Below are positions 36,685-56,754 of a DNA stretch of 64,000 nt, piece by piece. The DNA comes from Prostheceraeus crozeri. Lineage: Eukaryota; Platyhelminthes; Polycladida; Euryleptidae. Position 1 is the stretch's first letter. Every line of letters starts with the position of its first letter. Where the stretch lies: NCBI GenBank assembly GCA_907163375.1, contig CAJQUW010007240.1, positions 62,001-126,000 on the forward strand, read 5' to 3'. The notes beneath the pieces are model-generated. The model saw nothing but the letters and a program-made list of their open reading frames with translations, was not told where the DNA came from and did no database searches. A program made the translations under genes and the position numbers.

Positions 36685-36976
36685 AGTAATGGTCAAAAGA
36701 CCGTTCCAGGACAGGACAAGTCAAAAAAAATTGGTATCTTTAAAAACGACATAAATTCATGAATTTAGTCCCTTTTTCAGGTTTTTAAGACCTGAATTCA
36801 TGAATTTAGTCCATTCAAAAAGTACCATTTTTTCAAAAAATGGTATTTTTAAAAACAACATAAATTCATGAATTTGAACCCTTTTTCAGGTTATGAAGAC
36901 CTAAATTCATAAATTTAAGCGTTTTTAAAAATACCCAGTTTTTCAAATTTTTCAAAATCTCAAATTTGAGAATTAC

Positions 36977-37010
36977 AATCGGGCGAAGCCCTAGAACCTT
37001 CGGTTCGATT
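36977..37010. repeat. Double-hairpin element 1 (left TIR)
   Basis: GGGCGAAGCCC hairpin, spacer TA, then GAACCTTCGGTTC hairpin, framed by AATCG...CGATT. The same element is at 56338-56371 in the right TIR. Confidence 0.75.
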
Positions 37011-37162
37011 TTCACCCTTAAAATCATGACCGTTCCAGGACACCGAAAATCATAAAAGTTGAAAATCTCAAATTTGAGAATTACAATTTTTACCTTGAAA
37101 ATCATGACCGTTCTAGGACACTAAAAATTATAAAAGTTGAGTATCTCAAATTTGAGAATTAC

Positions 37163-37203
37163 AATCGGGCGAAGCGCGAAGCCCTAGAACCTTCGGTTCG
37201 ATT
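37163..37203. repeat. Double-hairpin element 2 (left TIR)
   Basis: As element 1, but the first hairpin is expanded by a GCGAAGC duplication. Counterpart at 56145-56185; a degraded relative is at 47763-47800. Confidence 0.75.
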
Positions 37204-37345
37204 TTCATTGCTTAAATCATGACCGTTCAAGGTCATCTAAAACCGGACACCGAAAATCATAAAAGTTGAGAATTTCAAATTCATGAGTTTAGACGTTTTT
37301 CAGGTTTTTAAAATATATCATGTGACTAATAATATTTCTTTAAAA

Positions 37346-37669
37346 ATGGAAGAAACAAAAATGGAAGGAACTTCAGAAATGAATGAAACAAAAGTGGAAG
37401 GAACCTCAAGAATATATCCTTCGTTATCTCAATTAAAAATAAGTGAATTAAATATTGAAAAACACAAAGATAGAGTACGTTATATGAAAGATAAGGAATC
37501 CCAATTATTATTAAGATTAGAGCATTATAAAAAATTAAGAAAGAGATGGACTAAAGTTAAGAATGTAACACAAGGAATTGGCATATTCTTATCAATAAGT
37601 TTAGGTACGTTAACAATTGTTATATCTTCAGGTGTTTTAGTAATTCCAGTAGTTGCTACAGCTTTGTGA
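37346..37669 (+). pseudogene. Terminal-repeat membrane protein, truncated left copy
   Basis: Same first 107 residues as the right-end gene at 56002-55322, because it lies inside the inverted repeat. The repeat ends inside the second hydrophobic segment, and a TGA follows at once. The product would have the charged N-terminal helix and most of the membrane region but no EF-hand-like tail. ATG at 37346 follows TCTTTAAAA, the usual start context of this element. It may be a by-product of repeat expansion into the gene, or a short regulatory isoform; the sequence cannot tell. Confidence 0.65.
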
Positions 37670-37821
37670 TACAATTAGATTTTAGTTGTACGTTAGGGAA
37701 GTTGTTTTAATTCAAGCACGTCAGCACAATCACATGACGCCAAAGCATCTGGCAGCTGTTTTCAATTCTCTCTCTCCTGTCATTGTTCCGTGTGCGCTAG
37801 AAAGCAAAGTTCTCATTTGAA

Positions 37822-38520
37822 ATGTCTTCCGTCAGCAAACTAGAGAGAGAATTTTGTTGCTTCGTGGATCAAGTTGTGCCTCTTATTTCACCAGACCATA
37901 TGGATTTCTTCAAAACGATAACAGCAAATTTTATCAATGAATCACTAAGAAAAAAACAGAAGACGAGTGGAAACGAAGAAGATAAAAAGAGAGAAGTGTT
38001 TGAAATAATCCGAGATTCATTCAAGGATGTTGACAGCAGCAATTTACCTGTAATTCTCGAGAAAAAGGATATTATAAGTACATCATCGTGCATATCTTCA
38101 TTGAATAAACTCATTGGTTTTGAGAAAATTACACATCGGAATCTTCTACGCTGCTATGTTTTACAAGGAGAAGTGCTTCAGCGACTTAAGTTATTGTCTA
38201 AAATGAATTATACAAAATTCGTGAAAGAGTTGAATGAGACTCATAACATTAAATTTTCACGTTCATATATAACATTATTAATCAAATTGTTCAAAATGTC
38301 AAGACATTATCCAAATTTAGCTAATTCCTCCTTATCGATTCATTTTGTGATGAAGCATTTTACATATCTGGAAGATTTTATTGATCATGAGAAAGAAGAA
38401 GAAAAGCGAAGATTAGCGGAATCCATATTTGATTCACCCAATGTGCAACAAACTGAACAACAACCTACTGGTCTAACGCAGGAATTTGAAGACTTGGAAA
38501 TGTTGGACTCTACTTCATAA
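37822..38520 (+). CDS. Unknown 232-aa accessory protein of the Polinton
   Basis: First gene inside the left repeat. Less AT-rich than its neighbours, as is its 5' flank (37700-37820), which suggests acquisition from another source. Highly charged and helical. The central region has THRNLLRCYVLQGEVLQRLK, then a segment with FVKELNETHNIKFSRSYI and KLFKMSRHYPNLANSSL, which looks like a helix-turn-helix DNA-binding or DUF3102-like arrangement; this is an inference from pattern only. A Glu/Gln-rich C-terminal tail ends in MLDSTS. Its 3' end is part of a 113-bp repeat that continues to the protease start. No confident family match from memory. Confidence 0.6.
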   Translation: MSSVSKLEREFCCFVDQVVPLISPDHMDFFKTITANFINESLRKKQKTSGNEEDKKREVFEIIRDSFKDVDSSNLPVILEKKDIISTSSCISSLNKLIGFEKITHRNLLRCYVLQGEVLQRLKLLSKMNYTKFVKELNETHNIKFSRSYITLLIKLFKMSRHYPNLANSSLSIHFVMKHFTYLEDFIDHEKEEEKRRLAESIFDSPNVQQTEQQPTGLTQEFEDLEMLDSTS

Positions 38521-38831
38521 GTAACAAGTAGTAACATTTATTGCAACTTATTTGACTGGAGACTGAAAAGTGACAACAGTGTTGGCAATTTGGATTTCTG
38601 TTTTTCATATAAATGTTGGACTCTACTTCATAAGTAACAAGTAGTAACATTTATTGCAACTTATTTGACTGGAGACTGAAAAGTGACAACAGTGTTGGCA
38701 ATTTGGATTTCTGTTTTTCATATAAATGTTGGACTCTACTTCATAAGTAACAAGTAGTAACATTTATTGCAACTTATTTGACTGGAGACTGAAAAATGAC
38801 ATTTTCAAATTGGATTTTTGTTTCATTTAAA
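38501..38831. repeat. 113-bp tandem repeat between accessory gene and protease
   Basis: Units start TGTTGGACTCTACTTCATAA at 38501, 38614 and 38727. The first includes the stop codon of the accessory gene; the third diverges near 38797 and runs into the protease start. The duplicated segment is the intergenic spacer with the protease upstream region, so promoter or terminator elements may be present in triplicate. Confidence 0.9.
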
Positions 38832-39254
38832 ATGACTGACCTGATCGAGTTTTTTAAATTATATGGAACAGACACAACAACGAATTTTGATCTAAAGAAA
38901 ATCGCACATCAATTGGGAATAAAGAATTTTCATGTCCTAATGAGAGACGAATTACAATTGATCAAAAATAGGCCAACTGTAAATTTCATAACGAATCTTC
39001 ACACTTCAGACCAAAACGGCGTACATTGGTCAGCAGGTATCTTTAGTAAAAACGGAGATAATTATTATTTTGACTCATACGGGCTTCCACCTACGAATGA
39101 AGTAAGAGCAATACTTGGCAATGGAATTTATAATACATTTCAAATTCAAAAACCGGGAACAACTTATTGTGGTCAATTATGTCTTTATGTTTTATTTAAA
39201 TTGCAAGAAGGAGTGCCATTTCTTGATATTATGTTAGAATTGAACGAACCGTAG
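38832..39254 (+). CDS. Adenain-like cysteine protease
   Basis: 140 aa from the ATG after CATTTAAA. Upstream frame from 38796 belongs to the repeat and is not needed. The fold family is the adenovirus maturation protease (C5/Ulp1-like). Visible catalytic set: His in GVHWSAGIF, Asp in YYFDSYG, and Cys in YCGQLCLYVL with an oxyanion-hole Gln just before it. In adenoviruses and Polintons this enzyme cleaves capsid precursor proteins during virion maturation. It is coded opposite the integrase, converging with it. The stop codon lies inside a double-hairpin element (39246-39270), which may have replaced the original C-terminus. Confidence 0.85.
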   Translation: MTDLIEFFKLYGTDTTTNFDLKKIAHQLGIKNFHVLMRDELQLIKNRPTVNFITNLHTSDQNGVHWSAGIFSKNGDNYYFDSYGLPPTNEVRAILGNGIYNTFQIQKPGTTYCGQLCLYVLFKLQEGVPFLDIMLELNEP

Positions 39255-39270
39255 GTTCTATGGCTAAGCC
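39246..39270. repeat. Double-hairpin element 3 (protease stop)
   Basis: GAACCGTAGGTTC hairpin, TAT spacer, GGCTAAGCC hairpin. The TAG in the first loop is the protease stop codon. Confidence 0.65.
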
Positions 39271-39288
39271 TAATAATAATAATGATAA

Positions 39289-40665
39289 TTAAAAATCAGT
39301 TCGTTGTAATTCATTTTGATAAAAACGGCCTCTGATATCCTCATTATCTAAATCTTTAATTTCATAAGTAAACGGATAACTTTGATTTATTTTACAAATT
39401 TCAAATATCTCTTTCGTCCAGTATCCGACGAAGCCCTTTTCAAATTTGTTCTTATATTTAAATATTCGCACTCTATCTCCAATCTTGAATTTCGGCTTAC
39501 GTTTCTGCAAATTCGGATTACTCTCATTCAAATTATTATTCTCGAATATTTTCTTTCGTATTAAATCAGGGTCGTCAGAAGCATTCTTTGGGGTTTCTTC
39601 AATACCTGAATGAACTTTATTATTGTACTCTTCTACAACTCCTGGTAATATCCTCAACCATTTCTGATTTCCTTGCTGAGTAAACTTTTTGAAAATTTTA
39701 TTTTTTAACGTCCGATTGAATCTTTCTATCACTACAGCTTTTCCTGCGTTTTCAGTTGAATAAACAGTTTCAAATAGTGGCTGAACGTTTCGGTTATAAA
39801 ATTCCGACCCTTTATCAACAAACAATTTCCTTGGCTTTCTATTACTTTCTTTAAAGATTTCTTCAAACGCATATTTAACTGATAGACCACTTTTATTTTT
39901 TAAAGGTTTTACCCAAGCGTATCGTGTATATAAATCTATAACTGTCAATGCGTATTTGTAGTCAGACTTTGTCTTAGAACCTTCGGTTCGGTCCCTTTCA
40001 TTCGGCATATGAATAAGATCAGCACTCCAAATATCATCTTTATTAAATACTTTTACTTTTAATAAATATTTAGGCTTTCTATATTCTTTATGAATTTCAG
40101 ATGCATAAAAGTCTGAATTATGATTTCGAGCGTTGCTCTCAGACAGCTTTGCTGTCGTTTCATTTAAACCCTGACCGAATAATATTTTAGCTTGTAAAGC
40201 TTTCTTAACAAACATTCTTTCAATTTTTTCTCTAAATGTAGGATTTTGAATACTATCTAATTCTTGAATCATTTTCTTATCAGCTGCATGTCGAGAACTT
40301 AGATCATGATTTCGATAAGCTAAATCATGTCTATAAGCGGCGGCATCTACTCTATTTATTGGTTCTTCACCTGGTTTCGGATTATTATTCTCATCTAGTC
40401 TGATATCTAATCGAGTTCCTGGACCGGTATATGAATGACCAGGAAGATGTTTTTCTTTCGAATATTTACTCCAAATAAATCCAGGAAAGTTTTCTAATGT
40501 TTTTTGTATGTCTCCACCGAAGTGGTGTGGAACTTTGTTCTTGTCACCTCCAATATGCTGACAGTTTGAGTTTTTATTTTTGTTTAATAGATAATTTAAT
40601 AAATCTAAATTAGCAATTTTTAATTTAATTAAATTTTCTGAATTTGTGGAATTTGCGGTATCCAT
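39289..40665 (-). CDS. Integrase with an N-terminal phospholipase A2-like domain
   Basis: 458 aa. Residues about 75-135 carry a parvovirus-type phospholipase A2 signature: SYTGPGT (calcium-binding loop), EPINRVDAAAYRHDLAY with the catalytic His-Asp pair (113-114), and an HAADKKMIQ helix. Residues about 205-340 form an RNase H-fold (RVE) integrase with Asp216 in WSADLI, Asp284 in LFVDKGSEFY and Glu314 in VVIERFNRTLKNKIF; only 29 residues separate the last two. The C-terminus (KFKIGDRVRIFKYK...) is an SH3/chromo-like DNA-binding domain. The integrase inserts the linear genome and makes the 6-bp duplication. The phospholipase could breach membranes during entry. Both in one open frame is unusual unless the protein is cleaved by the protease. 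A double-hairpin insertion encodes EGSKTKS near residue 230. Confidence 0.85.
   Translation of the reverse strand: MDTANSTNSENLIKLKIANLDLLNYLLNKNKNSNCQHIGGDKNKVPHHFGGDIQKTLENFPGFIWSKYSKEKHLPGHSYTGPGTRLDIRLDENNNPKPGEEPINRVDAAAYRHDLAYRNHDLSSRHAADKKMIQELDSIQNPTFREKIERMFVKKALQAKILFGQGLNETTAKLSESNARNHNSDFYASEIHKEYRKPKYLLKVKVFNKDDIWSADLIHMPNERDRTEGSKTKSDYKYALTVIDLYTRYAWVKPLKNKSGLSVKYAFEEIFKESNRKPRKLFVDKGSEFYNRNVQPLFETVYSTENAGKAVVIERFNRTLKNKIFKKFTQQGNQKWLRILPGVVEEYNNKVHSGIEETPKNASDDPDLIRKKIFENNNLNESNPNLQKRKPKFKIGDRVRIFKYKNKFEKGFVGYWTKEIFEICKINQSYPFTYEIKDLDNEDIRGRFYQNELQRTDF
39964..39989. repeat. Double-hairpin element 4 (inside integrase)
   Basis: AGACTTTGTCT hairpin, TA, GAACCTTCGGTTC hairpin. In frame; on the minus strand it codes for EGSKTKS, close to the DGSRTKS coded by the element at 50886 in the polymerase. 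Confidence 0.65.
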
Positions 40666-40698
40666 TTTAAAAGATAAAAATAAAAGTTTTACCGAAAA

Positions 40699-40724
40699 GA
40701 ACCAAAGGTTCTGAGGTTATTACC
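40699..40724. repeat. Double-hairpin element 5 (spacer)
   Basis: GAACCAAAGGTTC hairpin, TGA, then GGTTATTACC. Lies between the integrase and the 175-aa gene and overlaps the end of the latter. Confidence 0.6.
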
Positions 40725-41247
40725 TTATCATACTAGGACTTAGATATATTCCAGAACCATCCTTAGTTTCTTTAATTTCAATTAAATCATCAACATTGTG
40801 GAGAATATTTTTAAGAACTCGTTTTCCTTCATCAACTAACTTTAATTTACTAATAAAATTATCTACTACTCCTTTTCCTTCGGGCGAAGCCCTGGAAGAC
40901 ATCTCCGATGTCCCTTCACCCCTAGCAACTTTCTCTAACTCTCTATTATGTCGTTTTTGTTCTTCTAATGCTGCCTTCTCTGATTTATTTTTATTTACTG
41001 CTTGGACAATACCAGCTGTCCCACCTGCAACACTTCCTGCTGCTGCTATGCCACCTATTATTAGTGGAATTAATGGGAGAATCCCGCCATTCTTTTCTTC
41101 TTGTAATTGAATATTCTCTATCATTGGTTTACTTATGTAATACTTTTTTTTATTAATAGTAATAGTTTTAGGGGTATTTTTGTCAACAATATTACGTAAT
41201 TTTAATTCAACAGTTTTATTATTAATATTACTTTTCGCTTGCGACAT
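40720..41247 (-). CDS. Putative minor virion protein with membrane-active segment (175 aa)
   Basis: Lys-rich N-terminus with KTITINKKKYYI. Then a glycine/alanine-rich hydrophobic segment (GGILPLIPLIIGGIAAAGSV and following), a charged coiled region, and a C-terminal GSGIYLSPS. Position between integrase and major capsid gene, and the layout of a basic part plus an amphipathic hydrophobic helix, resemble the pX/pVI-like small core and membrane-lytic proteins of Polintons and adenoviruses. That role is inferred. A double-hairpin insertion encodes GTSEMSSRASPEG around residues 112-124. Confidence 0.6.
   Translation of the reverse strand: MSQAKSNINNKTVELKLRNIVDKNTPKTITINKKKYYISKPMIENIQLQEEKNGGILPLIPLIIGGIAAAGSVAGGTAGIVQAVNKNKSEKAALEEQKRHNRELEKVARGEGTSEMSSRASPEGKGVVDNFISKLKLVDEGKRVLKNILHNVDDLIEIKETKDGSGIYLSPSMIR
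40882..40912. repeat. Double-hairpin element 6 (inside the 175-aa gene)
   Basis: GGGCGAAGCCC hairpin, spacer TGGAA, GACATCTCCGATGTC hairpin. In frame; codes for SEMSSRASP on the minus strand. Confidence 0.75.
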
Positions 41248-41365
41248 TTTTAATAAAAAAATTTTAAGTTATCAAAAAGTTAAATCTATTCTAGTTACCA
41301 AAAAATTTTAAGTTACCAAAAATTTTAATCTATTCTAGTTATGAAAAAATTTTAATTAACCTATC

Positions 41366-41399
41366 GGAGCAAAGCTCCTCTGGCTTTAGCGCTTTAGCC
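41366..41399. repeat. Double-hairpin element 7
   Basis: GGAGCAAAGCTCC hairpin, TCT, then GGCTTTAGCGCTTTAGCC hairpin, framed by ATC...GAT. Same subtype as the two insertions in the right TIR. Located just after the major capsid gene. Confidence 0.75.
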
Positions 41400-41403
41400 G
41401 ATC

Positions 41404-41430
41404 GGACCAAGGGTCCTCAGGTTATTAACC
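41404..41430. repeat. Double-hairpin element 8
   Basis: GGACCAAGGGTCC hairpin, TCA, GGTTATTAACC hairpin. Immediately follows element 7 and includes the 3' end of the major capsid gene (stop codon). Confidence 0.75.
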
Positions 41431-42759
41431 AATCCTAACCATCTTTCCATTAAGAATTTCAATAGAATATTTTGCATCTTCTAGCAATAAACCATAAGCC
41501 ATCAATGAAGTTGTGGAATCTTTCTTTTCAATATTAATTGTTACATCACAACCATTTTTAATAATATCTTCAGATTGTGCACTTAAATCGAAACAGAAAA
41601 TTGGATATAAATGTCTCCAATCTCCAGGAGTTAATTGTGGTTCAACTCCAAATTCTATACAAAGATTTCTATAAGCATCATATCCTTCCATAAATTGATT
41701 ATTGGTATCATCGAATCTTAATGGATCAATTGGATATCGAGTTTGATTTAATGAAACTTGTAAACTTCGAATTGTATTAATATGAAAAATATTATTGTTC
41801 TTATCAAAACTTGGAGAATTATTTCTTTGAAATGTTAGTAATAAATATCTTGGTGTATTCGCAGTTCTAGTAAAATGCCAGTTAAATCTTTGTTCGGAAA
41901 AAGTTACTGAACTAGCAGTTCTCTTTAGAAAATTAACTGGAATTGGTTTGTTAGTATTTAATCTTTTTGCAATAGCTGTTTCAACCTCTAAACTAGGAGT
42001 AATATGCTTAATCCACCATTCAAGTCTATCAATTTTTAAATATGCTTTTTTCCCAGTCTTACCAAAAAAGATTAATTCATTATTTGCTGTACGATGAATT
42101 ATTAATTTAAATTTTAATTGATATGATATTTTATCATAATCTAAATAACCGAATAATGGAGACAATGACCAATTTACTGTCTGTTTACTTTTTTTGTTAA
42201 ATTCACGTCTTTCTTTATATGCTTCATTATTTGTTTTATTTAAATGTTTTGCAATATTTTCTACATCTTTCGCAATTCCTGCGGCATCTGTTCCAGCGTG
42301 AGTTAAATCATCAATAATTATACCATCATTAGTATCAGGAAACCAACCTTCGATTTCATGCTTTTTATTATTTTCACCAATTGTTATAAATCTAAGCATT
42401 GTATCAATTACACCTGGGGAATCACTTATTGTTTCTATATTTTGAGTTGCAACATCTAAACGCATTTGTGTAAATAAACTTGGGAAAAAATTATTCTCTA
42501 GTGTAATATTATCGGTATCTGGTAATGGTGTTGTAAAATTAGCATCAGAATATAGAGAATATTCACAGTGCAAAAATGAATCAGGTAAATATAAATAACT
42601 CTGCTGATTATCAACTTCAAAGATTAAATCTCCTCCAGTGTTTACTCTACTGGAAGATCCGGGATTCATAGCAATTCTTATATAGTCATTCTTTTTTTGA
42701 TTGTAACTGGTGAACGGAGGATCATCTAATCTAAATTTATTTTCGATAAGCGAAGACAT
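41425..42759 (-). CDS. Major capsid protein (double jelly-roll)
   Basis: 444 aa, usual size for Polinton major capsid proteins, although much shorter than adenovirus hexon. The N-terminal block with NPGSSSRVNTGGDLIFEV and the later RYLLLTFQRNN, IHFINTIRSLQVSLNQ-like and WRHLYPIFCFDLSAQ blocks match the conserved pattern of this family. Two jelly-roll barrels are expected, forming trimers that pack as pseudo-hexameric capsomers. It is transcribed leftward with the integrase and small virion genes. Start chosen at the ATG after TTATAAAA. No internal break. The C-terminus overlaps a double-hairpin element by a few codons. Confidence 0.85.
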   Translation of the reverse strand: MSSLIENKFRLDDPPFTSYNQKKNDYIRIAMNPGSSSRVNTGGDLIFEVDNQQSYLYLPDSFLHCEYSLYSDANFTTPLPDTDNITLENNFFPSLFTQMRLDVATQNIETISDSPGVIDTMLRFITIGENNKKHEIEGWFPDTNDGIIIDDLTHAGTDAAGIAKDVENIAKHLNKTNNEAYKERREFNKKSKQTVNWSLSPLFGYLDYDKISYQLKFKLIIHRTANNELIFFGKTGKKAYLKIDRLEWWIKHITPSLEVETAIAKRLNTNKPIPVNFLKRTASSVTFSEQRFNWHFTRTANTPRYLLLTFQRNNSPSFDKNNNIFHINTIRSLQVSLNQTRYPIDPLRFDDTNNQFMEGYDAYRNLCIEFGVEPQLTPGDWRHLYPIFCFDLSAQSEDIIKNGCDVTINIEKKDSTTSLMAYGLLLEDAKYSIEILNGKMVRIG

Positions 42760-42874: not shown

Positions 42875-43366
42875 TTAGAATTTTGCTAGACCAGCTCCGC
42901 TATGAATGCCATTACCTCTTATTTCTTCAATTGTTTTTTCATTTTGTTTACTATTACCCTCTACAGCAATGTTAGCAATTTTGTTTTTTGTTTCATCTGA
43001 AAGTTTTTTTAATTTTTTTAGTTCTTCAGAATCATTCTTGAGTTTACGAATAGCTTCTAGTTGTTTTAATTCGTTTTGTGATTTAACAGCATTTGATATT
43101 GCACTAGCTGTACTACCTATAGCAGCTGCTCCTTTTGCAGCAGATGTAATCAAATCTTTATTATTTTTAATTAAATTAACGATACTACCAATACCAGAAA
43201 AGATGCCATCCCCTTCTTTTTGGACGGCACCTGCGGTGCCTAGGAACTTTTCTGTTCCGACTGTTTCTCTATTATCATAATGATAAACAGGATTCATACG
43301 TGGTTCATGAGAAATTTTTTGATTTGAAGCAAAATGTTTAAGATTGTGTTTATAAATTATAGGCAT
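42875..43366 (-). CDS. Putative minor virion protein, Gly/Ala-rich (163 aa)
   Basis: Begins MPIIYKHNLKHF. A hydrophobic small-residue segment follows (GIFSGIGSIVNLIKNN, then AAKGAAAIGSTASAIS), a Lys/Glu coiled-coil of about 50 residues, and the C-terminus GNGIHSGAGLAKF. Such a glycine-rich amphipathic region ahead of a coiled coil is common in Polinton small virion proteins similar in layout to adenovirus pVI. The gene is beside the major capsid gene, same strand. An in-frame double-hairpin element codes for EKFLGTAGAVQ near residues 38-48. Role inferred. Confidence 0.55.
   Translation of the reverse strand: MPIIYKHNLKHFASNQKISHEPRMNPVYHYDNRETVGTEKFLGTAGAVQKEGDGIFSGIGSIVNLIKNNKDLITSAAKGAAAIGSTASAISNAVKSQNELKQLEAIRKLKNDSEELKKLKKLSDETKNKIANIAVEGNSKQNEKTIEEIRGNGIHSGAGLAKF
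43226..43258. repeat. Double-hairpin element 9 (inside the 163-aa gene)
   Basis: GGCACCTGCGGTGCC hairpin, TA, GGAACTTTTCTGTTCC hairpin; in frame with the gene. Confidence 0.75.
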
Positions 43367-43418
43367 TTTTTAGTAATAAATTTGACTTTTTGGGAAAAAT
43401 ATAAATTATAAAAAATGT

Positions 43419-43592
43419 TTATTTTTTGTTCTTAACTTTTGCAGATTGCGTTTTTGGTTTAACTTTATCAGGAACCAAACCTGCATCAATCATTCTTTTT
43501 ATTCTATGATTTTCTTTCATAATATTTCTTTCTTTTATTAACTCTTCTAATTGTTTAATTCTTTTAAAATTATTAACTCTAATTTTATCCAT
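43419..43592 (-). CDS. 57-aa mini-paralog of the 276-aa protein
   Basis: Starts MDKIRVNNFKRIKQLEELIK and continues with ERNIMKENH, nearly the same as the first 30 residues of the 276-aa protein at 52484, then ends in a short basic tail (KPKTQSAKVKNKK). ATG follows TTTTAAAA. It keeps only the charged helix of the longer protein, so it could compete with or cap the same partner. It may equally be a truncated duplicate; the open frame and clean start favour expression. Confidence 0.6.
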   Translation of the reverse strand: MDKIRVNNFKRIKQLEELIKERNIMKENHRIKRMIDAGLVPDKVKPKTQSAKVKNKK

Positions 43593-43736
43593 TTTTTAAA
43601 ATTATATACTTTTATATACTTTTATATTTTTAAAATTATATTTATATTTTTGTATTTTTTAAATTATATTTATATTTTTTATGATTCTTATTTTTTGTAG
43701 GTAAAAAATATTTAAGTTAATATTTACAATACTCGT

Positions 43737-45955: not shown

Positions 45956-46025
45956 AATCTTATATATATTAAAATATTATTTTTTATAAAGAATAAAATA
46001 TTATTTTATTAAAATATTCTTAAGC

Positions 46026-47762: not shown

Positions 47763-47800
47763 TCAAACCGAAGGTACTAGGGCTTCGCGCTTCGCACGAT
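47763..47800. repeat. Double-hairpin element 10 (degraded)
   Basis: Aligns with element 2 with about three substitutions (AACCGAAGGTACTAGGGCTT...). Located between the second ATPase gene and the polymerase. An older copy whose stems are starting to fail. Confidence 0.6.
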
Positions 47801-47898: not shown

Positions 47899-50800
47899 AT
47901 GAAAAAATTTTATTGTGTCTTATGTGAAAAAAAATTGCAAACAAAAAGAAGTTATCAATCTCATCTACAAAGTAAAATGCATTTACAAAATGTAGAACGA
48001 GTTGATGAAGGAAATATATTAAAATTAAATAGTTATAAAAATTATCTAGAAACATTGCCTACTGATATAAAAGTTAAAAAAATGTTTGATGATTATTCAC
48101 ATTCGGAATATAAAAAAATTTTTAATAGTGAAGATGAAGCCGTAACAGATATAAAATATTTATTTAGCGATACTGATGAATTTAACGAAATAGATGAATT
48201 TGATGAAGCCGTAACAGATATAAAATATTTATTTAATGAATCGGTTGAATCGGTTGAATATAATGAAACCGATAAAACTTTTTCTGATATTCTAACCAAC
48301 TTTTATAATATATTTAAGAAATCTTTCAAATGTTATATGAATGTACAAGTACTTTATACAAAAAATGGACCTGATGGAATTCCTGAAGAAATAATACAAG
48401 GACATTTTACAAATTCGCAAGAAATTCATAATGTAAATGATATACAACCCATATTTGAATCGATGATACTTAAATTAGAAAATTGTATAATTGAAGCCCA
48501 GTTACGTGAATCTGGTTGGAGATTTGTTAAAATAATATCTAAGAAAATAGTAATTGATAAATATAAAAATAATACTGGTGGTAGTTATGTTCCTTTACCT
48601 TTCAGTTCACCTCAATTAATCAACATAAAAAATGAAGATGATTATTGTTTTCTGTGGAGTATTATAGCACATTTACATCCTGCAAAATATCATAAAGAAA
48701 GACTAAGTCATTACAATAAAGAAGAATACATAAGTGAATTTGATCTTTCTGATGGCTTAGATGAATTTCCATATGATTATAATAGGTTACTAAAGTTTCA
48801 TAAAAAGAATAAAAATTTAATTGAAGTAAATGTTTTTGAATTAAATGTGAATTATGTTTCTATTGGTAAAATTACTCCACTTTACTCAGATTCAAAAAAA
48901 TTTTATTTGAATAATAAAAATTTTTGCCAATCAGAAATAGTATATAATGATAGAGGTAATTACATGCATCATAATATTTTTTACCAAGGAAATATAATAT
49001 GTACTGAAAAATTTGAACTTGTTAAAACACTATCACCAATAATGATTAATCATAATAATTATAAAGGACGTACTGATGATTATAATTACAAATATTCATC
49101 TTTATCTTCAGAATACCAACAAAAATTAGAAAATTTAAATAAAAGTTTACAAAAATGTAAAACAGATTATCAACAACAATTAAAAATGTTACTACAAGAA
49201 TATCACCATAAATATCAAAATAAGATAGAAACAATTCAAAAATTAAATGAAGAAAATAATAAAGAATTAGATAATGAAGAAAATGAAACCAAACAAAAAA
49301 TAAATGAATCTTTAAAAAAATGTCTACAACAATATAAAGAACAATATGATAAAGAATATATTTATCAGCTACAAATATTAAATCAAAATTATTATCAAAA
49401 TACATTTAATCTTACAAAAGAAATTAATAAAACACATGAAATATATAAAGATGAATTTGAAAAACTAGAACAGTCAAAACAACCAGCACAAGCGAATATA
49501 TTATATTATCAGGGTCATTTTATATTGTGTAAAGATGTTTCTATATTTACAAAAACTTCAGATAATAAAAATTTTCCTTGTCTTCAATGTATGACAAGTT
49601 TTAGAACTTTAGAAGAAATGAATAGACATTTGGAGAATTGTCAACAAAACGAAGCAGTTCAAAATACTTTTCCAAAAGATGATTATTTAGAATATAATAA
49701 ATGGTATTTTAAAAATAAAGTACCCTTTACTATTTATTGTGATTTTGAAGCATATAATGTTAATATGACACAAAATCGAACGGAAAGTTCCAGGGCTTCA
49801 CCCGATTCTGAAAATTATAATTCTGAAAATTATAATTCTGAAAATTATAATTCTGAAAAAAGTGCGCCTGGAAAAAGTTCAACTGAACAAAGTAAAGAAA
49901 AATATTTATTTGAACAAAAACCATTATGTTGGGGAATGTACATTCATTCGAATTATCCTGAATTATTTAAATCAGAATATTTTCAATACTATGGTGAAGA
50001 TAGTTCAGAAATGTTTACAAAGAAAGTACAAGAATTACAAGGACGTTTTTCACAATTGCTTGAAACAAATAAACCAATGATACCATTAACGGATGAAGAA
50101 AGAAAAGAATTTTATGATGAAATAAATTGTTATTACTGTGGAAAAGGTTTTACAAATAAATATAAAACTGACAGAGGTAGATATATTGATAAAGTAAAAG
50201 ATCATGATCATCTAAATGGATTATATAGAGGTGCAGCACATAATTCTTGTAATCTTAATGCTAACAAATTTAAATATAACTTTGTTCCTTTATATTTCTA
50301 TAATGGTTCTAAATATGATTTCCATCTAGTAATGAAAGATTTATTTTCATCAGAAAAATTACAACAACAAAAAATAAATGTACTATGTAAACAAGAAGAA
50401 GAATATTTTTCAATGCAATTAGGTTGTATTAGAATTTTAGATGCATTTAGATTTTTTACTCCGTATTCATTAGATGTTATGGGAAAAACTTTGAAACCTG
50501 AACAATGTAAAATATTAAATAAATATAATTTAAAACCTTTAAAAGGAATATTTCCGTATGAGTACATAACTGGAGATTTTAATTCTGTGAATAAAATTAT
50601 GGAAGAAGAACAACTTCCTCCAATAAATAAATTTAAATCAACATTAAAACAATCACAATTATCTGAAGAAGATTATGCAGAAGCTGAAAAAAATTGGAGA
50701 GAGTTAAATTGTAAAACAATGTATGATTATACAATGAAATATCTACAGATAGATGTATTAATACTAGCTGATCTTTTTGAAAACTTTCGTGATATGTGTT

Positions 50801-52380
50801 TAGAATATTACGGAATAGATCCATGTTATTGTTATTCTACACCAGGTTTAACATGGCTAGCAGGATTAAAACATACTGGTGTTCAAGCCGATGGCTCTAG
50901 GACAAAGTCCGTTAAACTTAAACATTATAAAGAAAATACATATGATAAATTATTATTTTTTGAATCTGGAATTAGAGGTGGAGTTTCATCAGTTTTAGGT
51001 AATAGATATGTTAAATGTTATAATAAGAAAGTAAATCCACAAGAATATGGAATAATTAAACCTTTATCTCCAGAAGAAAAAGAAAAAATATTAGAAATTT
51101 TTCGAACGAAACGAGAAGGGGTAGAACGTGAAAATGCAATTGATGAATTCATGAGAGAAAACTATTTATTATATTATGATTTTAATAGCTTATATTCTTC
51201 TTGCATGATACAAGAATTACCAACAGGTGAAATGACATGGTGTAATAATCTTGTTTATCAAAGAACATATGATGGTGAAAATAATTTTGGTTATGTATAT
51301 GAAGTTGATTTAGTATATCCTGATTATATAAAAGAAGCAACAAAATATTATCCTTTCTGTCCAGAAAACAAAATTCCCAATATAGAAGATTTTTCAGATT
51401 ATCAAAAATCTATAATTCCGAAAAAATACAGACCAACAAAAAAACTTATGTTAACACAAGGTAATAAAGGAAAGTATGTTGTTGAAGGAAGAATGTTAGA
51501 TTGGTATTTAGATCATGGAATGATTCTCACCAAAATACATCGAAAACTAGAGTATAGAAAATCTAAATGGTTAAAAAATTATATAGAGTTCAATATTGAA
51601 AAACGTAAAATAGCTAAAAGAAATAAAGATGATTTTGGAAACGTTTTCTTCAAATTAATGAATAATGCATTTTATGGTAAGACTTTAGAAAATGTACGTA
51701 ATAGACAAAATATTGAAATAGTTTATGATAGAGATAGATTTCAAAATTTAACAAGGAAACCTACATATAAAAGAACTACTAGATTCAGTGATGAACTTTG
51801 TGCTGTTCATCTAAGAAGAAGCATTGTAAAACATGATAAGTTTAATTTCATTGGTTTCACTATATTAGAATTAGCTAAACTATTTATGTATAGTTTTATA
51901 TATGATTATTTAGCACCTGCTTATGGCAAAAACTATAAATTACACTTTACAGATACCGATTCTATTTTCTTAGAATTAACAGTACCATATGGTTCTTCAC
52001 TAGATAAAGAAATTAATAAAATAAAAGATATTATTCATCCTTCTGATTTATGTAAAGTAAAAGATGAATTAGAAGGAAATGAAGATTTCATAACAGAAGC
52101 TATATTTTTAAAATCTAAATGTTACTGTTATGATACAACTAAAAATATTAAAACACATAAAACATTAAAAGGAATTTCAAAGGCATCAGTGGCTAATCAA
52201 ATAACATTTCAAGATTATAAAAATGCATTATTTAATAATGAAATAAAAACAGCATATAATTATAGACTTAATTCAAAGAAACATAAAATGTATTTAAAAG
52301 AAGAACATAAATTAGCATTAGATCCATTTGATGATAAAAGAAAAATTTTACCTGATGGAATAACTACTGAACCTTTTTAA
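47899..52380 (+). CDS. Protein-primed DNA polymerase B
   Basis: 1493 aa, intact. In order: a U1-like C2H2 finger (residues 4-26), acidic repeats, a domain with NIKNEDDYCFLWSIIAHLHP (about 243-262) frequent ahead of Polinton polymerases, a long coiled coil (about 404-527), a second finger (about 561-581), Exo I CDFEAYN (about 615), an inserted HNH/endonuclease VII-like module (CYYCGKGF at 744 and DHDHLNGLYRGAAH at about 769-782), Exo II YNGSKYDFHL (about 801), Exo III YLQIDVLILAD (about 948), Pol A DFNSLYSSCM (about 1094), Pol B KLMNNAFYGKT (about 1252) and Pol C FTDTDSIF (about 1350). The set means a proofreading, protein-primed replicase for the linear genome. Two double-hairpin insertions are in frame, in the Exo I-II interval and near 996-1003. 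Confidence 0.95.
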   Translation: MKKFYCVLCEKKLQTKRSYQSHLQSKMHLQNVERVDEGNILKLNSYKNYLETLPTDIKVKKMFDDYSHSEYKKIFNSEDEAVTDIKYLFSDTDEFNEIDEFDEAVTDIKYLFNESVESVEYNETDKTFSDILTNFYNIFKKSFKCYMNVQVLYTKNGPDGIPEEIIQGHFTNSQEIHNVNDIQPIFESMILKLENCIIEAQLRESGWRFVKIISKKIVIDKYKNNTGGSYVPLPFSSPQLINIKNEDDYCFLWSIIAHLHPAKYHKERLSHYNKEEYISEFDLSDGLDEFPYDYNRLLKFHKKNKNLIEVNVFELNVNYVSIGKITPLYSDSKKFYLNNKNFCQSEIVYNDRGNYMHHNIFYQGNIICTEKFELVKTLSPIMINHNNYKGRTDDYNYKYSSLSSEYQQKLENLNKSLQKCKTDYQQQLKMLLQEYHHKYQNKIETIQKLNEENNKELDNEENETKQKINESLKKCLQQYKEQYDKEYIYQLQILNQNYYQNTFNLTKEINKTHEIYKDEFEKLEQSKQPAQANILYYQGHFILCKDVSIFTKTSDNKNFPCLQCMTSFRTLEEMNRHLENCQQNEAVQNTFPKDDYLEYNKWYFKNKVPFTIYCDFEAYNVNMTQNRTESSRASPDSENYNSENYNSENYNSEKSAPGKSSTEQSKEKYLFEQKPLCWGMYIHSNYPELFKSEYFQYYGEDSSEMFTKKVQELQGRFSQLLETNKPMIPLTDEERKEFYDEINCYYCGKGFTNKYKTDRGRYIDKVKDHDHLNGLYRGAAHNSCNLNANKFKYNFVPLYFYNGSKYDFHLVMKDLFSSEKLQQQKINVLCKQEEEYFSMQLGCIRILDAFRFFTPYSLDVMGKTLKPEQCKILNKYNLKPLKGIFPYEYITGDFNSVNKIMEEEQLPPINKFKSTLKQSQLSEEDYAEAEKNWRELNCKTMYDYTMKYLQIDVLILADLFENFRDMCLEYYGIDPCYCYSTPGLTWLAGLKHTGVQADGSRTKSVKLKHYKENTYDKLLFFESGIRGGVSSVLGNRYVKCYNKKVNPQEYGIIKPLSPEEKEKILEIFRTKREGVERENAIDEFMRENYLLYYDFNSLYSSCMIQELPTGEMTWCNNLVYQRTYDGENNFGYVYEVDLVYPDYIKEATKYYPFCPENKIPNIEDFSDYQKSIIPKKYRPTKKLMLTQGNKGKYVVEGRMLDWYLDHGMILTKIHRKLEYRKSKWLKNYIEFNIEKRKIAKRNKDDFGNVFFKLMNNAFYGKTLENVRNRQNIEIVYDRDRFQNLTRKPTYKRTTRFSDELCAVHLRRSIVKHDKFNFIGFTILELAKLFMYSFIYDYLAPAYGKNYKLHFTDTDSIFLELTVPYGSSLDKEINKIKDIIHPSDLCKVKDELEGNEDFITEAIFLKSKCYCYDTTKNIKTHKTLKGISKASVANQITFQDYKNALFNNEIKTAYNYRLNSKKHKMYLKEEHKLALDPFDDKRKILPDGITTEPF
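49775..49807. repeat. Double-hairpin element 11 (inside polymerase)
   Basis: GAACGGAAAGTTC hairpin, CA, GGGCTTCACCC hairpin, framed by AATCG...CGATT. Codes RTESSRASPD in frame; followed by a ENYNS peptide repeat. Confidence 0.75.
50886..50910. repeat. Double-hairpin element 12 (inside polymerase)
   Basis: AGCCGATGGCT hairpin, CTA, GGACAAAGTCC hairpin. Codes ADGSRTKS in frame between Exo III and Pol A motifs. Confidence 0.75.
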
Positions 52381-52483
52381 TTTTCTAATTTCTATTTTCT
52401 AAATTTAAAAATATAACAATATAAAATATTATAAAAATAAAATATTATAAAATAAAATAATAATAAAAAATTATCATATAAAA

Positions 52484-53314
52484 ATGGATAAAGTTAGAGC
52501 TGATAATTTTAAAAGAATAAAACAATTAGACGAATTAATAAAACAAAGAAATATTATGAAAGAAAATCATCTTCAACATAGAATGACAAAAGCTGGTATT
52601 CAATCTGATATGTTTGATAAATTAAAAATAACTGAAGAAGTAAAAACTGATTATGAAAAAACTGTCGAACCATTTAAAACTCTTGAAAAGGAACTTAATG
52701 AAAAACGTGTTGATATAGCGGATCCTGTACTTAAAACACTATTAGATGACTATGGTTTATTAGAGGCAAACATAGATAAAAAATTACCAAAATCTATGTT
52801 ATTCGAACATTCTACTTTCCTTTTAGATAAAAAATTATTTGCAAGATTTTATCTTGGTGGTAAAGAAATATTTCCACAACCTTTACGAGGATTAATTTTT
52901 ACTCCAGATAAAAAACCTATTAGTTTAGATAGAAATTTTGTTGATCTTTTAAGAGGAGCAGATTTAAAAAATTATGCTGTAGAAGATCTAATAAAATATA
53001 AAACTATATTAGATAGAGTTGGCACAGTAAAAACTCTTAGACGTTATAAACAATTAGAAAATTTATTATCAACGGGAGTTAAAGTAGGGAAAGGTTTATC
53101 TGAAAAACAGAAAACAAAAAAACAGAAAACAGAAACAACCATATTTTTACCAGATGATCCACAAGAATTACTAAATAGATTAAATATTTTAATATCTGCA
53201 ATAAAAGAAGGACATAATTCTAGTTTCAATGAAATTCATGCTATATTGAAAAGACTGTTAGAAAAAAAGATTCTAAATGAAGAGGATTATAAAAGTGTAG
53301 CTGGACATCTCTGA
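52484..53314 (+). CDS. Conserved Polinton protein of unknown function (276 aa)
   Basis: The N-terminal half is a highly charged helix (MDKVRADNFKRIKQLDELIK, then NIMKENHLQHRM). The centre has a compact region with FARFYLGGKEIFPQPLRGLIF and ISLDRNFVDLLRGADLKNY. After a Lys-rich linker (KQKTKKQKTET) the C-terminal region (DDPQELLNRLNILISAIKEG) is helical. Sits between polymerase and minor capsid gene. Its start is found in three other places: a 57-aa mini-paralog (43592), a frame-broken copy (1470) and the window edge (20). A very short relic also lies at about 55200-55170. Repeated duplication of its 5' end is unexplained. The stop codon lies in a double-hairpin element. Confidence 0.7.
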   Translation: MDKVRADNFKRIKQLDELIKQRNIMKENHLQHRMTKAGIQSDMFDKLKITEEVKTDYEKTVEPFKTLEKELNEKRVDIADPVLKTLLDDYGLLEANIDKKLPKSMLFEHSTFLLDKKLFARFYLGGKEIFPQPLRGLIFTPDKKPISLDRNFVDLLRGADLKNYAVEDLIKYKTILDRVGTVKTLRRYKQLENLLSTGVKVGKGLSEKQKTKKQKTETTIFLPDDPQELLNRLNILISAIKEGHNSSFNEIHAILKRLLEKKILNEEDYKSVAGHL

Positions 53315-53334
53315 TGTCCTCCAGGGCTTCGCCC
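53303..53334. repeat. Double-hairpin element 13 (276-aa gene stop)
   Basis: GGACATCTCTGATGTCC hairpin, TCCA, GGGCTTCGCCC hairpin. It is bounded by the 6-bp direct repeat GTAGCT (53297-53302 and 53335-53340), and its TGA terminates the 276-aa gene. Confidence 0.75.
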
Positions 53335-53398
53335 GTAGCTGAAATATGTTGTTTCTAATTTTTTATAAAAAATATTTATTTAATTTTTTAGTTTAAAA

Positions 53399-54187
53399 AT
53401 GTGTTCAGCAGATTTAGACAAAATTAATAATCATTTACAAAATTTAACAGAGATTTTGGGTTCATCAAAATTTAGTACGACGTTAAAAATTATAACAACT
53501 ACTTCATCACACACTTGTAATTTAGAACCCATTCTACATTTAGAACAGAATAAAAATTATCAAATTGCATTGACTAGTTTCTCTACATTTAACACTATTC
53601 AAAACGTTATCAAAGATGTGAATGATCAATTTAGATATTCTACTGATAAAGGAAAAACATGGAAAATACTAACTTTTCTTCCTGGTTCTTACGAAGTTGA
53701 AACAATATCAAATGAAATTAAGAGACATTTAGGTATACCATTTAAAGATAAGAAACAATTACATTTTGCAGTTGAACCGGCAGTTAATAAATTTTCTCTT
53801 ACTTTAGACGAAAATCATCAAGTTGATTTTAATCATGATAGATCATTGTCAAAGCTATTAGGATTTAATAAACAAACCTATAGTCAAGGTTATCATTTAG
53901 GTGAGAAGATTCCAAAAATAACTGAAATAAATTCAATTGTTGTACATTGTGACATTATTGAAGGAGGATATATAAATGGTAAATTATCAAATTTAATATT
54001 CAGTTTTCCAGCTTTTACTGTACCCATTGGTTATAGATTAAATGTAATTCCACAAACATTAATATATTTTCCTATTACAAGAAAAACTATTAACAACATT
54101 GGCATTAGAATCACTGATGAAAAAGGACGAGAAATAAATTTTGGAGGTGAAGAGATTATGATAGATCTTTTGGTACGGGAGGTATAA
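53399..54187 (+). CDS. Minor capsid (penton-like) protein
   Basis: 262 aa. Pattern of the Polinton minor capsid protein, a single jelly-roll forming capsid vertices: LHLEQNKNYQIALTSFSTFN near the N-terminus, FRYSTDKGKTWKIL and FLPGSYEVETI, then LLGFNKQTYSQGYHLGEK, VHCDIIEGGYINGK, IPQTLIYFPIT and a closing GIRITDEKGREINFGGEE segment. These are typical beta-strand blocks of the family. Gene follows the 276-aa gene and precedes the packaging ATPase on the same strand. ATG after AGTTTAAAA. The last codons lie in a palindromic CGGGAGGTATAAACTCCCG. Confidence 0.8.
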   Translation: MCSADLDKINNHLQNLTEILGSSKFSTTLKIITTTSSHTCNLEPILHLEQNKNYQIALTSFSTFNTIQNVIKDVNDQFRYSTDKGKTWKILTFLPGSYEVETISNEIKRHLGIPFKDKKQLHFAVEPAVNKFSLTLDENHQVDFNHDRSLSKLLGFNKQTYSQGYHLGEKIPKITEINSIVVHCDIIEGGYINGKLSNLIFSFPAFTVPIGYRLNVIPQTLIYFPITRKTINNIGIRITDEKGREINFGGEEIMIDLLVREV

Positions 54188-54194
54188 ACTCCCG
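54176..54194. repeat. Palindrome at the minor capsid gene end (element 14)
   Basis: CGGGA and TCCCG pair around GGTATAAAC, and the GAGGTATAAAC part is repeated once downstream. It supplies the stop codon. The second hairpin is poor, so membership in the double-hairpin family is tentative. Confidence 0.45.
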
Positions 54195-54346
54195 TTCGAG
54201 AGGTATAAACTTTTACGCTACAATAGAGAAGTTTAATTTTTTTATCATTTTTCATTATTAATCTTATTAATCTTATTATTAGAAACAAAAAAATAAACTT
54301 AAATTAAAATTTTTATATTTTTGTTTTTAAAAACACTAATTCAATA

Positions 54347-55321: not shown

Positions 55322-56002
55322 TTAAGTTTTGTTTAATAAAGTTTTGTCTAATAAAGTTTTTAGCTCTTCTAAAAAAATTTTATCATCACTAAAAGTTTTA
55401 CCATCACTAGAAATTTTACCATCCTTTTTATTTTTATCATCAACTTTTTCTGTCTGTGATTGAAATGATATTTGATTTACTTCATTAGCTATTTGATCAA
55501 ATTTTTCAATCTCATCTAACGTAATAACATTATCATCACATACTCTTTGAAAGTAGTAATGTAGTTTATCATATACTTCTTTAATATGTAAATGCTTAGT
55601 TTTTAATGATTTTCGTTTCTTAGTTATTAAAGATTTTTCTAACATTGTAGCAAGTGAAGTTGCAAAAACACCCGTACCTGTTAAAGCTGTAGCAACTACT
55701 GGAATTACTAAAACACCTGAAGATATAACAATTGTTAACGTACCTAAACTTATTGATAAGAATATGCCAATTCCTTGTGTTACATTCTTAACTTTAGTCC
55801 ATCTCTTTCTTAATTTTTTATAATGCTCTAATCTTAATAATAATTGGGATTCCTTATCTTTCATATAACGTACTCTATCTTTGTGTTTTTCAATATTTAA
55901 TTCACTTATTTTTAATTGAGATAACGAAGGATATATTCTTGAGGTTCCTTCCACTTTTGTTTCATTCATTTCTGAAGTTCCTTCCATTTTTGTTTCTTCC
56001 AT
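55322..56002 (-). CDS. Terminal-repeat membrane protein, complete copy
   Basis: 226 aa from the ATG after TCTTTAAAA; the 21 codons upstream are not needed. The variable, charged N-terminus has two METK/MNETK-type repeats. A charged helix (KHKDRVRYMKDKESQLLLRL) and a hydrophobic block of about 50 residues follow, starting GIGIFLSISLGTLTIVISSG. Then come KKRKSLK and DDNVITLDEIEKF, and a C-terminus with repeated SDGK and LLDKTLLNKT. The first half lies in the inverted repeat and the second half in unique DNA. Four copies in the window, all with the core conserved, suggest importance to the element. Possible virion membrane, pore or host-interaction protein; unknown. Confidence 0.75.
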   Translation of the reverse strand: MEETKMEGTSEMNETKVEGTSRIYPSLSQLKISELNIEKHKDRVRYMKDKESQLLLRLEHYKKLRKRWTKVKNVTQGIGIFLSISLGTLTIVISSGVLVIPVVATALTGTGVFATSLATMLEKSLITKKRKSLKTKHLHIKEVYDKLHYYFQRVCDDNVITLDEIEKFDQIANEVNQISFQSQTEKVDDKNKKDGKISSDGKTFSDDKIFLEELKTLLDKTLLNKT

Positions 56003-56144
56003 TTTTAAAGAAATATTATTAGTCACATGATATATTTTAAAAACCTGAAAAACGTCTAAACTCATGAATTTGAAATTCTCAACTTTTATGATTTTCGGTG
56101 TCCGGTTTTAGATGACCTTGAACGGTCATGATTTAAGCAATGAA

Positions 56145-56185
56145 AATCGAACCGAAGGTTCTAGGGCTTCGCGCTTCGCCCGATT
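56145..56185. repeat. Double-hairpin element 15 (right TIR)
   Basis: Counterpart of element 2 with the same 41-bp length. Confidence 0.75.
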
Positions 56186-56337
56186 GTAATTCTCAAATTT
56201 GAGATACTCAACTTTTATAATTTTTAGTGTCCTAGAACGGTCATGATTTTCAAGGTAAAAATTGTAATTCTCAAATTTGAGATTTTCAACTTTTATGATT
56301 TTCGGTGTCCTGGAACGGTCATGATTTTAAGGGTGAA

Positions 56338-56371
56338 AATCGAACCGAAGGTTCTAGGGCTTCGCCCGATT
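56338..56371. repeat. Double-hairpin element 16 (right TIR)
   Basis: Counterpart of element 1 with the same 34-bp length. Confidence 0.75.
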
Positions 56372-56434
56372 GTAATTCTCAAATTTGAGATTTTGAAAAA
56401 TTTGAAAATTGGGTATTTTTAAAAACGCCCAAAT

Positions 56435-56470
56435 CGGAGCGAAGCTCCTCTGGCTTTAGCGCTTTAGCCG
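56435..56470. repeat. Double-hairpin element 17, absent from left TIR
   Basis: GGAGCGAAGCTCC hairpin, TCT, GGCTTTAGCGCTTTAGCC hairpin; 36 bp between AT and AT. The left TIR at the matching place (about 36910) has one AT and no insert. Confidence 0.85.
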
Positions 56471-56521
56471 ATTTATGAATTTAGGTCTTCATAACCTGAA
56501 AAAGGGTTCAAATTCATGAAT

Positions 56522-56573
56522 CGGCTTAAGCGCTAAAGCGCTAAAGCGCTAAAGCCAGAGGAGCTTCGCTCCG
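56522..56573. repeat. Double-hairpin element 18, absent from left TIR
   Basis: Opposite orientation to element 17 and 52 bp long because CTAAAGCG is repeated in the second arm. AT on both sides; the left TIR at about 36864 has an uninterrupted site. Confidence 0.85.
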
Positions 56574-56754
56574 ATTTATGTTGTTTTTAAAAGTACCATT
56601 TTTTGAAAAAATGGTACTTTTTGAATGGACTAAATTCATGTATTTAGGTCTTAAAAACCTGAAAAAAGGGACTAAATTCATGAATTTATGTCGTTTTTAA
56701 AAGTACTATTTTTTTGATTTTATGGTGTCCTGGAACGGTCTTTTGTCCATTACT

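Follow-up and report, generated by a model that had tools for sequence, protein, structure and literature searches.

GC-rich double-hairpin units and their empty sites in a Polinton of the polyclad flatworm Prostheceraeus crozeri

The stretch of Prostheceraeus crozeri DNA analyzed here (contig CAJQUW010007240.1, positions 62,001 to 126,000; hereafter the window, 64,000 nt) carries a Polinton of 20,070 nt, whose limits within the window are exactly 36685-56754, and this AT-rich Polinton is studded with small GC-rich units that are predicted to fold as two adjacent hairpins. The Polinton is bounded by a 6-bp target duplication, CAGACA (36679-36684 and 56755-56760), and its terminal inverted repeats (TIRs) form a 743-nt arm pair of 99% complementarity that can be aligned across about 1 kb. 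All the hallmarks of a Polinton are present, namely TIRs, a 6-bp target duplication, a family B DNA polymerase (PolB), an rve integrase, a packaging ATPase, and a double jelly-roll capsid protein. GC content per 2 kb is 30-35% between 36 and 42 kb and 21-26% between 42 and 56 kb, compared with 34-47% in 20 of the 22 corresponding intervals of the flanks. The final list holds 17 distinct units, or elements, of 27-52 nt, together with two mirror copies in the TIRs (Table 1).

A mechanical scan required two stems of at least 4 bp with 3-7-nt loops, separated by no more than 6 nt, and a summed score of at least 14. It finds 17 double hairpins in the Polinton, compared with 0.65 (SD 0.75, maximum 3) in 60 sequences obtained by dinucleotide shuffling within 500-nt blocks. 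The flanking segments of 18,000, 18,684, and 7,246 nt contain 2, 7, and 1 double hairpins, versus shuffle means of 3.25, 3.20, and 1.20 (20 shuffles per segment); the 7 found in the 18,684-nt segment equal its shuffle maximum, and this segment is slightly high. When the score is raised to at least 16, 11 double hairpins remain in the Polinton (five of them from a tandem array) versus 0.23 in shuffles, and the flanks retain 0, 0, and 0. Thus, shuffled sequence does not give equally many double hairpins, and no comparable density is found in the 43.9 kb of DNA outside the Polinton. An earlier note, made from the letters of this DNA alone, had described about 18 such units as a new family; the observation is real, and the count, size range, and plan that it gave were about right. 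Both of the examples that it quoted are present as written, GGACC-AAG-GGTCC/TCA/GGTT-ATT-AACC at 41404-41430 (in E10) and GGCACC-TGC-GGTGCC/TA/GGAAC-TTTTCT-GTTCC at 43226-43258 (E13).

The scan matches and the final list overlap in part. Five of the 17 matches belong to a single tandem array (45746 onward) and one, at 54771, is AT-rich and was dropped, while the match at 56537 is part of E23 and those at 36981 and 56342 are mirror TIR copies. Ten of the listed elements come from the scan, and seven with imperfect or small stems (E2, E3, E6, E9, E15, E16, and E22) were recognized by reading. The tandem array, the AT-rich match, and candidates viewed near 42640, 42888, 46025-46060, and 54170-54215 are uncounted, which leaves gaps in the labels E1-E23. 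The last of these candidates, ACGGGAG-gtataaa-CTCCCGT, is a hairpin whose loop contains the stop codon of the first 262-aa open reading frame (ORF); a degenerate second half follows, and the candidate is a possible further element. The tandem array (45746-45955) repeats a 20-bp unit about ten times head to tail. Each unit comprises the hairpin CAACTA-aaa-TAGTTG and tattt, and the array lies directly after the stop codon of the 308-aa ORF.

The commonest unit, spelled out for E1 in Table 1, is 28 nt long and comprises a C, a 13-nt hairpin, the linker TA, an 11-nt hairpin, and a G. Five elements (E1, E3, E4, E16, and E17) give a gap-free alignment across the full 28 nt and have 35-nt relatives in E2 and E15; from their sequences we group E8 with E18, E9 with E22 and E23, and E7 with E10, leaving E5, E6, and E13 as singletons. 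Because the units form at least four sequence-related groups, sequence is shared along with structure. The base preceding the paired core is C in 11 of the 17 elements and the base following it is G in 14; GC content is 46-66% in 16 units and 37% in E7, in surroundings of 21-35%. The second stem broadly follows the plan proposed in the earlier note, although its GG start is not found in every unit. Folding with DNA parameters yields two simple hairpins for 12 of the 17 units; E9 and E22 show one 10-nt loop, and the first hairpin of E23 is longer. Relative to mononucleotide shuffles, z-scores lie between -0.6 (E15) and -4.8 (E23).

Among the five 28-nt units, two-sided changes (A-T for G-C) occur at 3 of 10 pairs, 90% of the cells pair compared with 83% after shuffling (reached by 0 of 500 shuffles), and the covariation score is equalled in 3 of 500; because only five related sequences contribute, we take this as support and not as proof. 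The proposal that structure is what is kept is right only in part: it agrees with these paired changes, but within groups the sequence is kept too. A covariance model built from the five units and run over the window, as well as over the one related contig described below, gives 13 matches up to an E-value of 10, of which 12 fall in the Polinton, all on listed elements or their mirrors, versus one in the flank (12.8 bits). Within the Polinton, the model recovers the five training units, the E1 mirror, and, at 35.8 bits, E2 with its mirror; the other four matches are weak (13.9-17.2 bits, E 0.04-0.28) and fall on E8, E7, E15, and E18. Rfam gives no match at gathering level, and seven matches below it (E <= 1) were set aside as structure without homology. 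E22 and E23 are inverted about a short spacer (56432-56576), producing one long hairpin that gives the best of these seven matches, to a microRNA family at 47.4 bits (gathering threshold 83).

Table 1. Coordinates in the window of the Polinton, its identified genes, and the double-hairpin elements
Feature	Position	Strand	Direct repeat	Description
Polinton	36685-56754	none	CAGACA	TIRs start AGTAATGG; identified by target duplication and gene content
Integrase	39289-40665	-		rve (PF00665) with N-terminal PF08398 domain (Pfam)
Major capsid protein	41425-42759	-		double jelly-roll, PF21738 (Pfam)
ATPase	46197-47747	+		packaging type, Pox_A32, PF04665 (Pfam)
DNA polymerase B	47899-52380	+		PF03175, N-terminal zinc finger (Pfam)
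E1	36980-37007	-	AT	canonical 28 nt, C-GAACC-gaa-GGTTC-TA-GGGC-ttc-GCCC-G; left TIR
E1 mirror	56341-56368	+		right TIR
E2	37166-37200	-	AT	35-nt E1 variant with 7-nt internal duplication; left TIR
E2 mirror	56148-56182	+		right TIR
E3	39245-39272	+	AA at best	28 nt; overlaps stop codon of 152-aa ORF
E4	39963-39990	-	GAC	28 nt within integrase gene; codes RTEGSKTK; net insert 30 nt
E5	40127-40157	-	GAAA	31 nt within integrase gene, variable region
E6	40514-40540	-	GACA	27-nt double hairpin in N-terminal part of integrase gene
E7	40698-40725	-	at most 1 bp	double hairpin at stop codon of 175-aa ORF; sequence related to E10
E8	40882-40912	-	GAAGG	31 nt within 175-aa ORF
E9	41365-41400	-	GAT	36 nt; related to E22 and E23; adjoins E10
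E10	41403-41431	-	GAT	29 nt; overlaps stop codon of capsid gene; first example of earlier note
E13	43226-43258	-	GTC	33 nt within 163-aa ORF; second example of earlier note
E15	47764-47798	+	AT	35-nt decayed E2 relative, 18 nt past ATPase stop codon
E16	49777-49804	+	AT	28 nt within DNA polymerase B; one mispair per stem; codes RTESSRASP
E17	50884-50911	+	GTT	28 nt in conserved block of DNA polymerase B; net insert 30 nt (10 aa)
E18	53303-53335	+	GTAGCT (7-bp form GTAGCTG)	overlaps stop codon of 276-aa ORF; sequence related to E8
E22	56435-56470	-	AT	36 nt, right TIR only (net 38 nt)
E23	56522-56573	+	AT	52 nt, right TIR only (net 54 nt); inverted relative to E22

The two TIRs provide a direct comparison of occupied and empty sites. 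Their alignment has two clean gaps, both on the left side, of 54 nt opposite E23 and 38 nt opposite E22 of the right TIR. Both are at ATAA^AT, and apart from these two elements the left TIR closely matches the right one there. The left TIR also contains a tandem unit that ends GAATTACAAT; its first and third copies are followed by E1 and E2, respectively, while the middle copy is without an element, such that the empty site corresponding to E1 is found in the next tandem unit, at 37066-37102. The earlier note had only implied that the units are mobile, and these empty sites support it.

Comparison with homologous proteins provides further matched sites, and was carried out for E4, E5, E6, E8, E16, and E17 using the best 120 of 323 polymerase homologues, the best 120 of 917 integrase homologues, and 34 homologues of the 175-aa ORF. 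The 10 residues contributed by E17 to PolB are absent from all ten nearest homologues, and the corresponding columns hold no residue in 119 of the 120 aligned homologues and two residues in the remaining one. Similarly, the 10 residues contributed by E4 are missing in the nearest integrase homologue (P0001; 80% identical in one alignment, 73% in a local alignment), and 92 of the 120 integrase homologues have no residue in these columns, with 2-10 residues in the other 28. The E8 segment is absent from two homologues of the 175-aa ORF, P0241 (82%) and P0244 (75%), and its 12 columns contain two residues in 11 of the 30 covered homologues and 5-95 in the remainder. Among solved structures, PFV integrase is matched by the integrase profile, E4 lying close to the beginning of the aligned part, and the polymerase profile gives a zinc-finger match only.

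Short direct repeats flank most of the elements (Table 1). When the outermost paired bases are taken as element ends and at most 2 nt of slack is allowed, in elements and controls alike, the repeats total 49 nt across the 17 elements and are 2-3 bp long in 12 of them; permuted right flanks total 30.8 nt (0 of 5,000 permutations reach 49) and random positions 28.3 nt (0.17% reach 49). The repeat is AT at E1, E2, E15, E16, E22, and E23. Three known movers were considered and dropped: Tc1/mariner elements always target TA, Helitrons insert between A and T without duplication, a misfit to GAC, GTT, and GTC, and the integrase of the Polinton itself produces a 6-bp duplication.

Of the 13 elements that lie between the TIRs, seven are within genes, apparently with the reading frame preserved. 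The net insert, which is the unit plus its repeat (E7, without a repeat, was excluded), is 30, 33, 33, 36, 36, 30, and 30 nt for the genic elements, and 30, 37, 29, 38, 31, 37, 38, 38, and 54 nt for the nine others, giving multiples of three in 7 of 7 versus 2 of 9 cases (p 0.003). For E5 the boundary was chosen to give 33 nt with a 2-bp repeat; its longest repeat gives 34 nt and a p of 0.02. In-frame inserts of this kind fit random insertion followed by loss of harmful events. E4, E8, E16, and E17 share orientation and frame and encode peptides of the form S-[RK]-[AT]-[SK]. No copy of the element peptide was found in 240 homologues with 14 patterns, which gave three incidental short matches. 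A scan for rare inserts in the 120 integrase, 120 polymerase, and 34 ORF175 homologues returned 34 segments, none of them convincing, but this negative says little because E17 and E4 themselves went unflagged.

On the basis of presence and absence at matched sites, direct repeats above controls, tolerance in frame, and a higher density in the Polinton than in the DNA directly beside it, all of which are observed, we consider it probable (roughly 0.7) that the units are related, non-autonomous mobile micro-elements carried by the Polinton; the interpretation given in the earlier note is supported. The direct repeats, mostly of 2-3 bp and often AT, look as if the unit had been joined into a short staggered cut. 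Polymerases of this class use protein-primed, strand-displacing replication. Such strand displacement during replication of the Polinton would expose single strands, on which the units could fold; a folded unit might then leave its site, or be copied, in the form of a single-stranded double hairpin that is joined into a staggered break, whose fill-in would create the direct repeat. Fold-back synthesis along a hairpin could explain the compensated stems and the stepwise growth of hairpins. Gene-sparing copies would survive within genes, and others would persist in the TIRs and at gene 3' ends. We put forward this replication-linked, single-strand chain tentatively, at somewhat poorer than even odds. 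The fuller proposition, that the units constitute a virus-borne class of tiny mobile elements (28 bp plus a short direct repeat) that is confined to the Polinton and moved as folded single-stranded DNA by its own protein-primed replication, is possible but doubtful.

Several points weigh against mobility or narrow its basis. The absence of E22 and E23 from the left TIR could in principle reflect loss there, and such a loss would need precision. The loop that accommodates E4 is variable in length, given the 28 homologues with residues in it, and the absence of E8 is clear against close homologues only. The comparisons leave undecided the sites of E5 (no residue in 14 of 96 covered homologues, in a variable region), E6 (at least one residue in each of 25 covered homologues), and E16 (one residue in each of two covered homologues, again in a variable region). 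E3 has a repeat of AA at best and E7 one of only 1 bp; a single 2-bp AT repeat is weak in AT-rich DNA, and element ends had up to 2 nt of slack, as in the controls. Repeat length ranges over 2-7 bp, which speaks against a single dedicated transposase. The folds of E2 and E15 are not two simple hairpins, and the outer C-G pair forms in no minimum-energy fold. The covariation test is small: among 500 shuffles, the count of pairs with two-sided changes is equalled 25 times and the number of pair types every time. Finally, the flank sample of 43.9 kb is small, and nothing in the data points to a mobilizing enzyme or a single-stranded intermediate.

The distribution of the units relative to genes raises the alternative that the hairpins are mRNA 3'-end signals like those of Mimivirus and Marseilleviridae, with the genic copies arising by chance. 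The six elements between the TIRs that no gene fully contains are all at most 26 nt from a stop codon, which four of them overlap; random extragenic placement would put 26% of elements near a stop and 25% near a start, and six of six near a stop has a probability of 3.3e-4 if the elements are independent, although E9 and E10 are neighbors. The excerpted text of PMC5413956 describes the Mimivirus and Marseilleviridae hairpins as mRNA-end signals enriched at gene ends of these large DNA viruses, and reports that coding regions hold 75 of the 226 palindromes of Noumeavirus, which favors this alternative. It does not, however, describe those hairpins as inserts, and the Polinton units also occur in genes and TIRs. 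Confinement to gene 3' ends is contradicted by the seven genic elements among the 13, two of which, E17 and E4, stand where most homologues have no residue; further elements sit in the TIRs, and by reading the 3' ends of the polymerase, the 316-aa ORF, and the second 262-aa ORF are without elements. A transcript-end role could have come as a later use and not as the origin. Overall, we regard a signal origin as rather unlikely, and the 3'-end bias may mean that hairpins are tolerated at the 3' ends of genes or serve there as ends of transcripts, as in Marseilleviridae.

It is also unlikely that the units are nuclear elements of the host, similar to miniature inverted-repeat transposable elements (MITEs) or short interspersed elements, that entered the Polinton as well. 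The Polinton is integrated in host DNA, where host enzymes could mobilize them, and one flank segment has 7 low-scoring double hairpins compared with 3.2 in shuffles, yet none of the 43.9 kb of flank holds one at a score of at least 16 and the best flank match of the covariance model has an E-value of 0.53. Very improbable is a local, de novo origin of each hairpin by template switching or slippage during replication, with no mobile unit involved. Hairpins do appear, by reading, to have grown by duplication (of 7 nt from E1 to E2 and two of 8 nt from E22 to E23), but related units at distant sites, on both strands and with direct repeats, are unexpected from local events, and the occurrence of E1-type units at seven sites already counters such an origin. 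That the inserts were selected at the protein level as flexible linkers, the DNA hairpins being a by-product, would suit a peptide that is small and polar and read in one frame in four genic copies; the same kinds of unit are, however, non-coding in the TIRs and across stop codons, which leaves this explanation with almost no likelihood.

Mobility of related, non-autonomous units has parallels in other systems. The functionally nearest appear to be the mitochondrial double-hairpin elements and yeast GC clusters and, for in-frame insertion, the Rickettsia palindromic elements, but the Polinton units are not members of these families by location, size, or target. The double-hairpin elements of Allomyces mitochondria reportedly consist of two hairpins and a short linker (Paquin et al., in 2000). 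Organellar double-hairpin elements are, like the Polinton units, GC-rich in AT-rich DNA and present or absent at matched sites, but they reside in mitochondrial or plastid DNA, whereas the Polinton units do not. According to the excerpted text of PMC2800124, insertions vary between close species and the Allomyces elements lack flanking duplications, whereas the Polinton units have direct repeats. The GC clusters of yeast mitochondria are likewise small, GC-rich, and hairpin-forming, and lie in AT-rich DNA. Their direct repeats are 2-3 bp long (AG or ACT for the abundant clusters), and their mechanism is described as unresolved in the part of PMC4478555 consulted. These clusters are mostly intergenic, with GC42 being 42 nt long, whereas the Polinton units have seven genic copies and more varied targets, with repeats of AT, GAC, GTT, GAAGG, and others in place of AG or ACT.

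The Rickettsia palindromic elements resemble the Polinton units in inserting in frame in unrelated genes and coding a conserved peptide, but as excerpted from PMC10969869 they are about 150 bp long and bacterial, compared with 27-36 bp for the Polinton units in genes and 25-50 nt for paired cores. The placozoan mitochondrial repeats (PMC7813641, in excerpt) and the sponge RHE (PMC2800124) share GC richness, 3-nt loops, and lineage-specific spread, and some placozoan copies are also inside genes; both are mitochondrial, however, and the placozoan family, GGVBCC-N3-GGVBCC, is single- and not double-hairpin. MITEs differ in another respect. Their terminal inverted repeats match those of an autonomous transposon, whereas beyond the hairpins the Polinton units have in common only the C before the paired core (11 of 17) and the G after it (14 of 17), and no partner transposon was identified.

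The units are known from this single Polinton copy only. Viral contigs scanned with the capsid, the integrase alignment, and the polymerase alignment yielded no DNA relative, exact element patterns (insensitive to divergent units) matched nothing in viral or genome contigs, and blastn of a 36-nt stretch containing E1 found no match in a phage collection. A scan of genome contigs with the integrase alignment recovered one contig (L001, 7,163 nt), filed under an uncultured Muriicola metagenome-assembled genome, in which it is probably misbinned. This contig, the only related Polinton contig found, shows no double hairpins by the identical scan. It encodes, over positions 1-7163, a Polinton integrase and, by reading, polymerase-like and other genes. 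No description of double-hairpin elements in Polintons was found in the open-licence literature.

Other features of the locus deserve mention. The phospholipase A2-like domain PF08398 that is N-terminal to the integrase (39289-40665) is present as well in most of the 120 integrase homologues listed. The TIRs hold a gene start, as the 128-aa ORF on the left (37283-37669) and the 247-aa ORF on the right (55322-56065) have a common TIR-encoded start. A 131-nt inverted duplication of 81% complementarity joins 43466-43596 and 52480-52610, its second arm spanning the start of the 276-aa ORF, and three tandem copies of a 113-bp unit (38498-38836; the third 78% identical) run from the end of the 232-aa ORF to the start of the 152-aa ORF. 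Among nine flank ORFs scanned, one encodes a Tc1-like transposase, one a MADF domain, and seven are without a match.

How mitochondrial hairpin elements spread is described as unresolved in the excerpts of PMC4478555 and PMC2800124, which note that DNA- and RNA-mediated routes have been proposed. The P. crozeri Polinton offers a nuclear or viral setting in which the mechanism can be tested, because a 20-kb element with an identified polymerase and integrase contains the units, matched empty sites in its TIRs, and readable repeats. If the units are indeed a Polinton-confined class that moves as single-stranded DNA, they would, as far as our searches show, be without precedent beyond organelles and bacteria, and they would enter genes for replication and integration with the reading frame kept. 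The Polinton also shows viral proteins taking up apparently selfish DNA in frame, a route to new protein segments.

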